39,245 nt of DNA from a virus, in the IMG/VR virus record IMGVR_UViG_3300046367_000005, positions 1-39,245 of that record. One strand, written 5' to 3'. How positions within the stretch are numbered: position 1 is the first letter of the stretch; every line of letters starts with the position of its first letter. Both the position numbers and the translations under genes were made by a program. Under the pieces are notes generated by a model. That model did no database searches, was not told the DNA's origin, and worked only from the letters and a program-made list of their open reading frames with translations. Shown in pieces: positions 14,626 to 25,015 of this stretch.

Positions 14626-15045
14626 TTAACCTTTCAAGGCTTCCACACCAGCGTGCAACTGTGCATAGTGCTCAGGCTTCACGTCATTGATGTTCTGGTA
14701 ACCCATGCTAGTCAGCACGCCTTGGATCTGTTGACCCTTTTCAGCACCGAGTGCCTTGTAAGCACCCATCACGTATTCCAACAGACCTTTGGGATCATTG
14801 AACGGTGTGCCAGCAGCAGGTGCAGCCACGGGTGCTGGTGCTACGAATGATGGAGCAGCAGGCATTACGGGAGCAGGAGCAACAGGAGCAGCCACGGGTG
14901 CTGGAGTAGCAACGGTGACGGTTAAAGGAGCAGCTACGGGATCTTGCACAACAGGGGCAGCAGGTGCTACATTGATGCCTTCGATTTTGGCGGTCAATGC
15001 GATGACAGCGGCGGCGAGGTTTTTGATTTCAGTTTCCAGTGACAT
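14626..15045 (-). CDS. Ala/Pro-rich linker protein of replication operon
   Basis: The start at ATG 15045 is chosen for its AAGGA ribosome site. The 139-aa product has an N-terminal coiled helix (SLETEIKNLAAAVIALTAKI), a long Ala/Pro/Val linker (about 27-80) and a C-terminal helical domain (about 84-139; DPKGLLEYVMGAYKALGAEK, VLTSMGYQNINDV). Similar two-domain proteins with Pro/Ala linkers accompany DUF2815/DUF2800 cassettes in other phages, with no known role. It may be a scaffold that ties two parts of a replication complex together. Confidence 0.7.
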   Translation of the reverse strand: MSLETEIKNLAAAVIALTAKIEGINVAPAAPVVQDPVAAPLTVTVATPAPVAAPVAPAPVMPAAPSFVAPAPVAAPAAGTPFNDPKGLLEYVMGAYKALGAEKGQQIQGVLTSMGYQNINDVKPEHYAQLHAGVEALKG

Positions 15046-15229
15046 ATAACGATTCCTTACGGTTTGCGGGAGGTTGAATTGTGAGACGGTCATCATTGAA
15101 CGCCTCGACTATTTCACGTAGCACTTCGGACGGGTTACCGTGCTTCTGCGCCTTGGTGTGAAATTTGGTTCGCGTCTTGTCAGTCACACGGACTACAAGG
15201 AACGCTGATTTGAGCTTGGTAGTTGCCAT
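15029..15229 (-). CDS. Ribbon-helix-helix-like small protein, first gene of replication operon
   Basis: ATG 15229 lies about 30 bp downstream of a good promoter; a longer frame to 15289 would start upstream of that promoter and is rejected. The 66-aa product has a beta-strand-like start (SAFLVVRVTDKTRTKFHTKA) and a helix with the RHH-like pattern GNPSEVLREIVEAFNDDRL. It may be an Arc/CopG-type repressor acting on its own promoter region. No Shine-Dalgarno sequence is evident. Its 3' end overlaps the next gene by 17 bp. Confidence 0.65.
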   Translation of the reverse strand: MATTKLKSAFLVVRVTDKTRTKFHTKAQKHGNPSEVLREIVEAFNDDRLTIQPPANRKESLYVTGN

Positions 15230-15259
15230 AATCAAAATAAATTTGGTTTCGTTGAACAA

Positions 15260-15289
15260 AGTATAACAGCATCTGATACACTTGCGCAA
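15260..15289 (-). promoter_or_regulatory. Leftward promoter of the replication operon
   Basis: On the minus strand, TTGCGC (15289-15284) is followed after 18 bp by TGT-TATACT (extended -10; hexamer 15265-15260), five of six bases matching TATAAT. Transcription would begin about 25 bp before the ATG at 15229 and run leftward through the replication genes to 6594. This is a sigma70-type site by inspection only. Confidence 0.6.
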
Positions 15290-15322
15290 ACAAATTCAAA
15301 AATATTTTTCAAGAGGGTGAAA

Positions 15323-15472
15323 ATGGAATGCAAGCACAGGTGGTCTGAGGTGAACTGGGGCAAGAAGTACCGAGTCGAGGGGTCGTACTATTACTGGTGC
15401 TCTCGCTGCTACCAATGTCGCTTTGCCCAACTCACCCAAAAGAAAAGCCCTGACCTTGTGAGTCAGGGCTAA
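15323..15472 (+). CDS. Zinc-ribbon mini-protein (49 aa) upstream of primase
   Basis: ATG 15323 is preceded by AAGAGGG at good spacing. The product has Cys3 and His5 near the start and CSRCYQC (Cys26, Cys29, Cys32) in an aromatic context (YYYW), suggesting one bound zinc. The final codons coincide with a perfect 9-bp inverted repeat (15446-15470). It is the first gene of the rightward primase transcript. No family is recognised; it could be a regulator or an accessory to primase. Confidence 0.6.
   Translation: MECKHRWSEVNWGKKYRVEGSYYYWCSRCYQCRFAQLTQKKSPDLVSQG
15438..15470 (-). terminator. Leftward intrinsic terminator within the 49-aa gene
   Basis: Arms AGCCCTGAC (15446-15454) and GTCAGGGCT (15462-15470) are perfect with a 7-nt loop. 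On the minus strand the stem is followed by TTTCTTTT, so it terminates leftward transcription. It would stop antisense transcripts crossing the primase before they reach the replication promoter at 15260-15289. On the plus strand it lacks a T-run and may only fold as an mRNA hairpin. Confidence 0.7.
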
Positions 15473-15486
15473 AAGAGGAACCAAAC

Positions 15487-15525
15487 ATGAACATGACAAC
15501 TGCATTGTCAGAACGGATTATATGA
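15487..15525 (+). CDS. Possible 12-codon leader ORF coupled to primase
   Basis: ATG 15487 follows a strong AAGAGGAA ribosome site and encodes MNMTTALSERII. Its TGA overlaps the primase ATG by 4 bp (ATGA at 15522-15525). The primase itself has no separate ribosome site, so its translation may depend on this short frame. It could be a leader peptide rather than a functional protein. Confidence 0.5.
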   Translation: MNMTTALSERII

Positions 15526-20341: not shown

Positions 20342-20562
20342 GGTTCTTCTGGCTCCTTGTCTTCTCTGCGTCCACAGTCGTCGCACTGCCAGTATTTCCA
20401 ATGGGGTTGGGTATACATGGGGCCAATGCAGCTTGGGCACGTTGGTTCGTCGTCTTGATCTATCTCGCGCTTACCAAAGGTGCGATCAAAGTTATCACGA
20501 TAGCTGTTGGTGCTTGATTTACTCACCAATGAGTCACCAGTTATGTCGTTCTTTGATGTCAT
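20338..20562 (-). CDS. Zinc-ribbon protein (74 aa)
   Basis: The 74-aa product has a polar N-terminal half and a C-terminal ribbon with two CxxC pairs: TCPSC and CDDC, separated by an aromatic loop (MYTQPHWKYWQ). This is a standard rubredoxin-like zinc ribbon of phage regulators and RNA-polymerase-binding proteins. Ends overlap neighbours by 4 bp. The binding partner is unknown. Confidence 0.68.
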   Translation of the reverse strand: MTSKNDITGDSLVSKSSTNSYRDNFDRTFGKREIDQDDEPTCPSCIGPMYTQPHWKYWQCDDCGRREDKEPEEP

Positions 20563-20813
20563 GGCTTCCCTTTTGGCAAAAAGTAATCATGTATCGCGGG
20601 TGCAATAGTCTCCAGTGAACCCATTACATCGAGCAGGCGAACGGCAACCGATGGGGGTGTACGTTCACCCGATTGCCACTTGATGTAGGTATGCACAGGG
20701 ACACCTAGATAATCGGCGGCTTGAGCGTTGGTTAATTTGAGTCGTTCCCTCAGTGCTGCTATGCGTGCAGAGGCTGGAGGAATAGGGGGTTTTAGGCGTG
20801 TTTGTTCATTCAT
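20559..20813 (-). CDS. XRE-type helix-turn-helix regulator
   Basis: The start is taken at ATG 20813 (84 aa); ATG 20825 four codons earlier is also possible, and neither has a clear ribosome site. Residues about 16-65 form a lambda-repressor-like HTH: ARIAALRERLKLTNAQAADY, LGVPVHTYIKWQSGERTPPS. It has no oligomerisation or peptidase domain, so it is Cro-like in size. It is a natural candidate to bind the ACCCANTGGGT palindromes at 23.3-24.4 kb, but that link is inference. Confidence 0.78.
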   Translation of the reverse strand: MNEQTRLKPPIPPASARIAALRERLKLTNAQAADYLGVPVHTYIKWQSGERTPPSVAVRLLDVMGSLETIAPAIHDYFLPKGKP

Positions 20814-20829
20814 AGGGGGTTGCATAGGG

Positions 20830-21555
20830 TTAGGGGTTTTCAGGTGTCCACAACACCGCGTGCGACTCAATCATCAACAATGCGGAGCAATATTCTTTCG
20901 CATGATTGTTGTCTTGATGGGTGCTTGATAACTTTGCATTAAATTCATCAAGGGTTCCAAAAAAACAACCCGTTTGAATCTTTAATCCTTGATCGGTAAC
21001 CCATGCGGTCAAGTAGTCCATGCGTGAACCAATGGGGCCAATTTGAAACCATGGGCGCTTACCTATTAACTTGGCATCACTGAGGTTGGCCCCACTGAGG
21101 TTGGCCCCACTGAGGTCGGCCCCACGGAGGTTGGCCCCACGGAGGTTGGCATCACTGAGGTTGGCCCCAATGAGGTAGGCCCCACGGAGGTTGGCCTCAC
21201 GGAGGTTGGCCCCAATGAGGTTGGCCCCAATGAGGTAGGCCCCACGGAGGTTGGCCTCACGGAGGTTGGCATCACTGAGGTAGGCCCCACGGAGGTTGGC
21301 CTCACGGAGGTTGGCCTCACGGAGGTTGGCCCCAATGAGGTTGGCCCCACGGAGGTTGGCCCCACTGAGGTCGGCCCCACGGAGGTTGGCCTCACGGAGG
21401 TTGGCATCACTGAGGTTGGCCCCAATGAGGTAGGCCCCACTCGATACGGCTTTCTCAAGCACATATCGAGCGGCTAACCCGCTGGGCGTGTCGCTTGGTA
21501 CAGCGCATTCAAAAATAACAGCGTTTGTGAATCGGTTTTTAATCTGGTGTTTCAT
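20830..21555 (-). CDS. Pentapeptide-repeat protein
   Basis: The 241-aa protein has a 40-residue N-terminal cap, 25 consecutive pentapeptides A(N/D/Y)L(x)(x) at residues 41-165 (such as [20 protein letters not shown]), and a C-terminal region about 166-241. That C-terminal region has the pattern [20 protein letters not shown] and [10 protein letters not shown], which recurs behind pentapeptide repeats in many phages. The repeats should form a right-handed quadrilateral beta-helix. Some such proteins mimic DNA and inhibit gyrase; no evidence of that here. The coding repeat is near-perfect at DNA level, so copy number is probably unstable. Confidence 0.92.
21061..21435 (-). repeat. 25-copy 15-nt tandem repeat
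   Basis: The pentapeptide region is encoded by 25 units of 15 nt, plus-strand consensus GAGGTTGGCCCCACG with a few variant classes (ATCACT, CCAATG, CTCACG, CCACTG at the variable positions). The DNA similarity is higher than needed for the protein, which points to recent expansion by slippage or unequal recombination. Confidence 0.92.
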
Positions 21556-23321: not shown

Positions 23322-23353
23322 GTGATAGTTTAACCCATTGGGTGACTTGTCAA
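23322..23353 (-). promoter_or_regulatory. Leftward promoter with palindromic operator in the spacer
   Basis: On the minus strand a perfect TTGACA (23353-23348) is followed by AGTC and the palindrome ACCCAATGGGT (23343-23333), then TAAACT (23332-23327, spacing 15) or TATCAC (23327-23322, spacing 20) as possible -10 boxes. A repressor on the palindrome would block polymerase. The -10 is weak, so activator-dependent use is also possible. Confidence 0.55.
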
Positions 23354-23404
23354 TAGAAAATGTTTCTATGCAAACCCGCTGGGTGATAGTTTTACCCAAT
23401 GGGT
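23333..23404. repeat. Palindrome cluster I (three ACCCANTGGGT-type sites)
   Basis: Sites: ACCCATTGGGT 23333-23343, ACCCGCTGGGT 23374-23384, ACCCAATGGGT 23394-23404. The first and third belong to a 25-bp direct repeat (23321-23345 and 23382-23406, 22 of 25 identical, 61 bp apart). This 138-bp gap between the HNH and 52-aa genes holds no other gene. Likely operators. Confidence 0.85.
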
Positions 23405-23895
23405 TAATTGGTTAAGTTTTTAATGCGTTTGTTGAATTCGGCGGTGTCGATGAATCCTTGTTCTTTGGCGAATTCAAGCGCGGCGCGGTCCCCCAGCTTC
23501 TCGCGTACTTTTTGCACCTTGAGTGTGTTCATCTGTTTATCACTAATGCCGATCAACTTTAAGAAAGAACCAAAATTCCCTTGGTTGTTTTTGTCTTGCT
23601 TTTCTTTAGTGGGTGCGCGGAGGTTTTCGGGGCGATTGTCGAATTTGTCACCGTTCAAATGTTTAATGTGATAGTTAGGCCACTCCCCGCGCTTCATTCG
23701 CCAGACAACGTGGTGAGCCATAACATAACAATTGGCAACAGTGAGGCGAATGCCAGCGGCGGTTATGGAACCAGCGGGTTCTTTCCAAGTGTGCGAGCCT
23801 TTGGCGCATTCTTTAAAGAACACCCCCGCGCTTTCATCGAATGAGAACGAAGCGGCGCATTGTTTCAAGAATTCGTCAGTTTTCGGGTAAGTCAT
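23404..23895 (-). CDS. HNH endonuclease, first gene of early operon
   Basis: The 163-aa protein has a strong AAAGG ribosome site. Residues 60-95 are the HNH_3 core: His61/His62 (MAHHVVWRMKRGEWPNYHI), Lys78-His79-x-Asn81 (KHLNGDKFDN) and Asn91 (PENLRAP). The first His of the usual DH/NH motif is preceded by Lys rather than Asp or Asn. The C-terminal 60 residues are charged and helical, with SDKQMNTLKVQKVREKLGDR, and could bind DNA. It is flanked on both sides by palindrome clusters and may have entered by homing into this control region. Confidence 0.85.
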   Translation of the reverse strand: MTYPKTDEFLKQCAASFSFDESAGVFFKECAKGSHTWKEPAGSITAAGIRLTVANCYVMAHHVVWRMKRGEWPNYHIKHLNGDKFDNRPENLRAPTKEKQDKNNQGNFGSFLKLIGISDKQMNTLKVQKVREKLGDRAALEFAKEQGFIDTAEFNKRIKNLTN

Positions 23896-23938
23896 GTTTC
23901 AACCTTTCAAGTGTGCCATTGTGACCATGTAAGCCTAG

Positions 23939-23947
23939 ATCATAGCA
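23939..23947 (-). promoter_or_regulatory. Leftward extended -10 promoter of early operon
   Basis: The minus strand reads TGC-TATGAT (hexamer 23944-23939), an extended -10 with five of six matches. Seventeen bases upstream only a weak -35 (GTAATT) is seen. The HNH ATG lies 44 bp downstream, which suits the start of the leftward early transcript. Confidence 0.45.
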
Positions 23948-24103
23948 CAGAATATTAAAACAATTACGGATAATAATAAAAAGATTTAGAAAAGCCTTCT
24001 AGGGTTCTTGGTCAATTTGGCACAGTGATTAAGGGATGCCCACTCGTTGATGGTTAATTGTTGATTGTTTCGCGGGTTTATGGGTTCAATCTGGAATCAC
24101 AGA

Positions 24104-24376
24104 ACCCAGCGGGTCTGTTCCCGTGTGCGCGTGTGGGGTAAATTGTCACACTCACCCAATGGGTGCAATGACCCAATGGACACAATCAACCCATTGGATG
24201 CACGGATTCTGTGACCCACTGGGTTAGTTTATGTGCTAGATACCGTGACCCAATGGGTTTAGGGAATATCGGGGATCGCGCCGACCCCCTCCCCCTAGGG
24301 CCGAGCGCCATCGGGTCACGGTTACGGAGGACTCAGATGAAATTTTTAATTTTTTAATCCATAGAACCCATTGGGT
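24104..24376. repeat. Palindrome cluster II (seven ACCCANTGGGT-type sites)
   Basis: Sites: ACCCAGCGGGT 24104-24114, ACCCAATGGGT 24154-24164, ACCCAATGGAC 24171-24181 (half site decayed), ACCCATTGGAT 24189-24199, ACCCACTGGGT 24214-24224, ACCCAATGGGT 24248-24258, ACCCATTGGGT 24366-24376. Spacings run 17-34 bp in the core. Same consensus as cluster I. Too short and irregular for CRISPR. Confidence 0.88.
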
Positions 24377-24439
24377 TCCCTACTCCCACTGCTACTTTTT
24401 ACACACATGCTTCAAAAGATGTGATAGCATCGGGCCACT

Positions 24440-25015
24440 ATGGAACCTCAAATCCTAGGCACAACTGTCACAGCAGGCCCACAACTCGAACATACCTCGT
24501 CAGCACCTGAGATGCCTGACTGGTTAGCCGCGCCTACTCCCGAGATCCCAGCGATCCGCGAAGCCACCCCCACGAACCGCGAGATCATGTACATGCAGTT
24601 TGAGTACATGTTTGACCATGTGCTTGATCAACTCGCTGGGGGCAAGACCATCAAACAAACACTCGATCACGACCCTCGTGGGTACGAGTCGGCCACGTAT
24701 ATCCATTGGATCAAGAAAGACCCGCAGCGCACGAGCCGCTATGAGCACGCTCAACTGCTGTTTGCAGAGCAGCTTGGCGCTGAGATCATTGAGATCTCGG
24801 ACGCAGAGGACTCAGCGGAAGATGTCCAGCGTTCTAAGCTGCGGATCGACAGTCGCAAGTGGCTCATGGGCGTTTACAACAAGAAACGCTACGGTGAGAC
24901 AAAAACTATCGAGATGGGTGGGTCGATAAGTATTACTGATGCCCTTGCTCAAGCTCAAGCCCGAGTGATAGAGGGTGAAGTGATTGATGTGACACCTCGA
25001 CTAGAGAACAACTGA
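24440..25015 (+). CDS. Terminase small subunit
   Basis: The 191-aa protein has a Pro-rich N-terminus, then FEYMFDHVLDQLAGGKTIKQ and YIHWIKKDPQRTSRYEHAQL, an HTH-like DNA-recognition region. The family-typical stretch follows: LGAEIIEISDAEDSAEDVQR, LRIDSRKWLMGVYNKKRYG, and a C-terminal strand/helix (SITDALAQAQARVIEGEVID). It recognises the packaging site and delivers DNA to the large subunit. It is the first gene of the late operon; its stop overlaps the large-subunit ATG by 1 bp. No strong ribosome site is visible. Confidence 0.87.
   Translation: MEPQILGTTVTAGPQLEHTSSAPEMPDWLAAPTPEIPAIREATPTNREIMYMQFEYMFDHVLDQLAGGKTIKQTLDHDPRGYESATYIHWIKKDPQRTSRYEHAQLLFAEQLGAEIIEISDAEDSAEDVQRSKLRIDSRKWLMGVYNKKRYGETKTIEMGGSISITDALAQAQARVIEGEVIDVTPRLENN

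Follow-up and report, generated by a model that had tools for sequence, protein, structure and literature searches.

The question raised by this locus is which protein reads a short palindrome that is repeated ten times between two divergent operons of a phage, and what its binding would do to them. The stretch analysed (hereafter the window) is 39,245 bases long and constitutes a virus record in IMG/VR; all ten copies lie between 23333 and 24376, around an HNH endonuclease gene and ahead of the small terminase gene terS. The sites, to which no strand is assigned, and the two genes are the following.

23333-23343: site 1, ACCCATTGGGT, exact; putative operator within the spacer of the leftward early promoter (PE)
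23374-23384: site 2, ACCCGCTGGGT, one mismatch
23394-23404: site 3, ACCCAATGGGT, exact; upstream member of the left sites, abutting the end of the HNH gene
23404-23895, minus strand: HNH endonuclease gene (PHROG 99, PF13392), whose insertion separates the left sites from the central cluster
24104-24114: site 4, ACCCAGCGGGT, one mismatch; central cluster
24154-24164: site 5, ACCCAATGGGT, exact; central cluster
24171-24181: site 6, ACCCAATGGAC, two mismatches; central cluster
24189-24199: site 7, ACCCATTGGAT, one mismatch; central cluster
24214-24224: site 8, ACCCACTGGGT, exact; central cluster
24248-24258: site 9, ACCCAATGGGT, exact; central cluster
24366-24376: site 10, ACCCATTGGGT, exact; last site, phase-locked to the putative late promoter, centre about -66
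24440-25015, plus strand: terS, first late gene, Sf6-like small terminase (PF20901, phrog_1482)

Exact copies of ACCCANTGGGT number six in the window (starting at 23333, 23394, 24154, 24214, 24248 and 24366), all of them within 23333-24376, against 0.03 expected from dinucleotide shuffles. When up to one mismatch is allowed there are nine copies within this interval (8.6 per kb) and two elsewhere in the window (0.05 per kb), and the word at 24171 (ACCCAATGGAC), a copy with two mismatches, completes the count of ten; a further two-mismatch word at 23769, within the HNH gene, was left out. ACCCA is the sole arm of a 5+1+5 palindrome with more than two occurrences in the window. The original prediction of ten sites, three of them left of or touching the HNH gene and seven in the gene-free stretch before terS, was thus borne out, also by the comparison with shuffled sequence that it had proposed; its figure of seven sites with both arms intact should read six.

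Searches with TerS and TerL yielded about 150 viral contigs, and all the relatives used come from metagenomes. The same array was found in most of the retrieved contigs containing the region upstream of terS, giving 98 non-redundant loci with 4-17 sites each (median 8). Some ACCCA loci were retrieved through the motif itself, and those retrieved through TerS, TerL or XRE agree with them. Conservation in relatives had been named beforehand as decisive, and the array is indeed kept where TerS is only 36-91% identical. In the common layout, two sites about 59 bp apart at the left end are followed, after a gap of about 180 bp, by 4-8 further sites; roughly another 140 bp separates these from a single last site just before terS, which is nearly always exact. 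The largest array, that of L134, has 17 exact copies of ACCCANTGGGT upstream of terS.

A gap of more than 450 bp within the array is present in 16 of 90 loci (the window and 15 others), and in none of the 90 does it fall between the cluster and the last site; the gap of HNH size is absent from the close relative L009 and from most relatives. This array gap appears to be an insertion hot spot, being filled in the window, L011, L012, L014, L027, L030, L094, L097, L132 and others, by HNH genes in some relatives and by an unrelated gene family ending ..VHLGYFAT..ERDAA.. in others.

The window is related to the uncultured Phage DSL-LC05, whose TerL is 77% identical to its own. DSL-LC05 is lytic according to its authors, who propose a family 'Luchaoviridae' (PMC10611076), and promoters, operators and repressors are nowhere mentioned in that paper. 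A literature search returned no report of a ACCCANTGGGT-type word in phages. The search of genome contigs for relatives returned one short MAG contig, and pattern scans of viral contigs for AGCCANTGGCT and TTACANTGTAA pairs led to unrelated phages.

As a mechanical sigma70 scan of the window control region called no promoter, the relatives were needed to read the promoters. At the left end of the array this element can be recognized.

23327-23353, minus strand: PE, putative leftward early promoter; -35 TTGACA 23353-23348, -10 TAAACT 23332-23327, site 1 in the spacer

In the window PE has a perfect -35, a spacer of 15 and a -10 with only 4 of 6 matches. In L009 its hexamers match at 12 of 12 positions (TTGACA-N5-site-TATAAT), and the typical form in relatives, read leftward, is TTGACA-N5-ACCCANTGGGT-TAGAAT. 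A site in the spacer of a leftward TTGACA/TATAAT pair with at least 10 of 12 hexamer matches was found in 49 of 97 non-redundant loci, against 0.5 with shuffled flanks, and in 45 of these 49 it is the leftmost site of the array. No rightward promoter with a site in its spacer was found at 10 of 12 matches. A protein on the spacer site should block the polymerase, and a site in the spacer of an early promoter is the classical repressor position. In relatives the regulator's site is thus placed so as to occlude the early promoter; the window promoter is imperfect.

On the other side of the array, ahead of terS, two elements follow one another.

24339-24358, plus strand: A/T tract GAAATTTTTAATTTTTTAA, which precedes the last site in most relatives, including those with variant palindromes
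24422-24430, plus strand: extended -10 of the putative late promoter (PL); TG 24422-24423, TAGCAT 24425-24430, 9 nt before the terS ATG and 48 nt after site 10

In 98 of 102 loci a TANNNT box precedes the start codon of terS by 9 or 10 nt, and the late -10 has a TG extension in 71 of 100. The late -35 hexamer has a mean score of 3.68 of 6, compared with 4.84 for the early one. With a -10 box at 9-10 nt from the ATG the terS message should start 2-4 bases before the start codon, so that it appears to be near-leaderless. The A/T tract may represent an UP-like element or bent DNA. To its left, a C/G-rich stretch, CCCCCTCCCCCTAGGGCCGA (24275-24300 in the window), corresponds to GGGGAGGGGGTAGGGCCGA in relatives (7490-7515 in L008), giving the impression that its inner run has changed strand, and this could possibly be a packaging-related element.

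The last site keeps a helical register with the late promoter. Its gap to the -10 box is mostly 26-28, 36-38, 46-48 or 56-58 bp (48 in the window, which places the site centre near -66), and at a period of 10 the circular concentration R is 0.81 (n=88). Reduced to a single locus for each 95% TerS cluster, the set gives R 0.75 (n=51), a value as high being obtained in 0 of 20,000 random sets, and at 85% clustering R is 0.66 (n=27); among only ten TerS lineages of less than 75% identity it is 0.42, which is not significant. The remaining sites of the arrays are not in register with the late promoter (R 0.05). Moreover, phages with variant motifs (AGCCA and TCACA) keep the register of the last site, with gaps of 26, 27, 36, 37 and 38 bp, and 49 bp in L088. 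A register of this kind, tolerating whole turns, is what would be required of an activator that contacts RNA polymerase. Activation is not thereby proven, since an inhibitory contact would also depend on the face of the helix; the weak late -35 together with the timing favours activation.

In phages without ACCCANTGGGT the same place is taken by another palindrome of the same 5+1+5 architecture. Arrays of AGCCANTGGCT occur in L083, L085, L088, L135, L151, L412 and L421; TCACANTGTGA-like words, of which TCACANTGTGA itself was derived from enriched words in L452-L456, occur in L143 and L452-L457. An unbiased palindrome search returned ACCCA in the phages that have Lys at the specificity residue of XRE described below, and AGCCA in L083, L085, L135, L151, L412 and L421. 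Phages with Lys have C at position 2 in 89% of their half-sites, whereas G takes this position in 71% of half-sites where the residue is His and in 63% where it is Asn. The symmetric change of both arms together points to a symmetric protein dimer. In L006 (MW202483.1), a more distant phage, about 13 GTTTACGTAAAC-like palindromes lie within 1.6 kb upstream of terL, in the matching place. Clustered CCGTAAC/GTTACGG repeats were also seen upstream of terL in the TerL relatives L138, L147, L153 and L154; no XRE homologue was found in L147, L149 and L154, the three genomes of this type that were tested, and these relatives were left out because of this and of their different gene layout upstream of terL.

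Two small proteins, both conserved in the relatives, had been put forward as binders of the sites, the XRE protein and the product of 15029-15229.

20559-20870, minus strand: XRE/Cro-like regulator with HTH_3, part of the leftward early operon and probably starting with the ATG at 20813 or 20825
15029-15289, minus strand: RHH-like small protein, ribbon-helix-helix by inspection, with no family or profile match

The XRE protein matches HTH_3 (PF01381) with 25.7 bits against a curated cut-off of 23 (26.7 bits in a six-frame search), is about 84-103 amino acids long without a second domain, and is encoded approximately 2.5-3 kb from the array. Directly upstream of its gene lies that of a pentapeptide-repeat protein (PF00805; 20830-21555, minus strand). 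The predicted structure of XRE (pLDDT 90) has helices at 13-24, 28-35, 39-47, 54-69 and 71-75, a five-helix fold with a recognition helix; the best fold matches of this model are HigA2, P2 C, MqsA and P22 c2, with high probability and none below E 0.001.

The specificity residue, which directly precedes the Trp in the recognition helix, is Lys 44 of the model and lies within the predicted helix 39-47. ACCCA phages have Lys here (138 loci; 49 of 49 at 90% non-redundancy, with a mean identity of 53% among these 49 proteins; 52 of 52 non-redundant proteins in the column control), AGCCA phages have His or Asn, in separate clades, and TCACA phages have Ala or Ser. As a control, we looked in four proteins for columns whose residue is shared by at least 97% of the ACCCA phages yet occurs in none of the AGCCA phages: 1 of 10 near-invariant columns switches in XRE, and it is this Lys, against 0 of 10 in the RHH-like protein, 0 of 23 in TerS and 0 of 184 in TerL. 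TerS and TerL, also considered as readers, were rejected on these figures. The one exception is L420, in which Asn goes with a degenerate array whose arms are mixed. In G008/L120 the sites are present and XRE was not found; as the record ends within the primase gene, beside the expected position of XRE, this locus is not counted against the model. The pattern suggests, at the level of sequence, that the operator word and the reading residue of XRE changed together, through few events, as there are only two to three independent recognition changes.

The corresponding helix position is occupied by Gln33 in the repressor of phage 434 and by Ala49 in that of lambda, which both contact bases. In L007 and L008 an Ala replaces the Phe, His or Tyr found four residues before the Lys and the outer base of the sites is relaxed, which would fit a contact of that residue with the outer base. 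The best sequence-profile match of XRE in the PDB is the C-terminal HTH of E. coli MqsA (3fmy, E 2e-5), and the Lys is aligned with an Arg taken to be the DNA-contacting Arg101; MqsA, which contacts DNA through Asn97 and Arg101, likewise binds palindromes (ACCT-N3-AGGT; PMC4901048), but it is an antitoxin with a toxin-binding domain and its half-site spacing is different. Taken together, it is likely that XRE, one of the two candidates named in the original prediction, reads all ten sites, with one invariant residue of its recognition helix tracking the operator type.

It is reasonably probable, judging from the comparison of loci, that the ten palindromes are XRE operators through which this protein shuts the early promoter and activates the late one. 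After infection, a host sigma70-type RNA polymerase would start at the leftward early promoter, and transcription of the early operon would make the Cro-sized XRE protein. As it accumulates, XRE would occupy the early spacer site and turn off the early operon and with it its own gene. At the last site, which shares its DNA face with polymerase at the terS promoter and is centred about 45-75 bp upstream of the start, a dimer would contact the polymerase and turn on the late operon; the promoter there combines an extended -10 with a weak -35, and its message would be near-leaderless. The effect of XRE on the late promoter is probably activation, not repression. The central sites, often decayed by one base, would load or titrate XRE and thereby time the switch. 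In relatives the 338 cluster sites have no promoter context, many carry one mismatch, their spacings are irregular and helical phasing between them is weak or none, and it is probable that these 4-8 sites set the time of the switch in this way. DNA looping through them is possible, but hardly as a fixed loop that reaches the early promoter, given that the array accepts insertions separating the early sites from the cluster.

Other readings of the array must be taken into account. It could be a pure repressor array, in which a Cro-like XRE represses early and late transcription alike and the phase reflects an inhibitory contact with the polymerase, relieved later by another factor. The early spacer site is indeed a classical repressor position, and phasing alone is compatible with either sign of late control. 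However, the late -35 is poor, the late genes must start while the early product XRE is abundant, and simple repression would be expected to put a site over the late promoter, like the one in the early promoter, and not in register 45-75 bp further upstream; we regard this reading as unlikely, though it deserves some weight. There is only a small chance that the central sites are stoperators, stopping elongating polymerase between operons as in Cluster A mycobacteriophages. There one repressor, Rep, has a true operator in Pleft and many non-promoter sites, with cognate motif variants among relatives, which recalls the many sites without promoter context found here; but Rep binds as a monomer to asymmetric sites of 13-14 bp, placed genome-wide in one orientation, in temperate phages (PMC6550527), whereas the present sites are palindromic and confined to 23333-24376.

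That the array might consist of iterons of a replication origin, as had been offered at the outset, or of recognition (packaging) sites for terminase, would suit its place beside terS in a gene-free region. This is scarcely credible, since the cluster spacings are irregular and not those of regular direct repeats, none of the 23 near-invariant TerS columns switches with the operator type, one site lies in the early spacer and the last is in register with the -10 of the late promoter. Ribbon-helix-helix proteins bind short palindromes, and the RHH-like protein is conserved in the same phages; nevertheless, with none of its 10 near-invariant columns switching with the operator type, its own promoter in the window lacking a full copy of the motif and no ACCCA site in its intergenic region (15230-15521), it is a poor candidate and very improbable as the reader. 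Of the earlier interpretation, the operator series is well supported, with XRE as its likely reader; the iterons and a lambda-like switch are not supported, nor is the 15029-15229 protein.

The intergenic region just mentioned, with the RHH-like gene (minus strand) on one side and the primase gene (plus strand) on the other, is a second divergent control region, and in many relatives it contains conserved promoter-like words and a terminator-like AAGCCCCGG..CCGGGGCTT. The plus-strand orientation of the primase gene is identical in all 118 loci, for which reason a rearrangement was rejected.

By its proposed mode of action, and not by sequence likeness to p4 or any claim of membership, the array seems to work like the p4 switch of phi29. 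In that phage an early regulator represses strong early promoters and is needed for a late promoter of low consensus on the other strand, through inverted-repeat sites and with A-tracts involved; unlike XRE with its 4-17 sites and a repressing site in the promoter spacer, p4 works with the nucleoid protein p6 (PMC3100819). With the CI/Cro system of lambda and the c2/Cro system of P22 the locus would share a small HTH dimer, several palindromic operators between divergent operons, activation from a site near the promoter, as CI activates PRM from a site beside its -35, and operator specificity types that vary among relatives (general knowledge; PMC6550527 introduction). It differs in having a single regulator gene 3 kb away and in that activation is proposed for the late operon. 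A lysis/lysogeny switch of the lambda type is not supported: XRE lacks a second domain and is the only HTH_3 match in the window genome, hence no divergent CI/Cro pair flanks the operators, and no tyrosine integrase (PF00589) was found in 17 records including the window, in agreement with the original prediction.

It is tempting to speculate, although we consider it rather unlikely, that these phages, without lysogenising, have true 'immunity types', in which the early regulator of a first phage would silence the early promoter of a superinfecting relative with the same operator word. Operator and recognition residue would then have switched repeatedly under the pressure of competition between lytic phages, and the central sites would act as a molecular timer.

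For an abundant group of uncultured freshwater podoviruses, the proposed switch offers a concrete, testable model of the timing of gene expression. The register of the late site and the Lys/His/Asn pattern constitute natural-variation data on an HTH regulator that represses and probably also activates, and they bear on the joint change of an operator and its regulator in phages that show no sign of lysogeny. Moreover, the specificity types are candidate orthogonal operator/regulator pairs.
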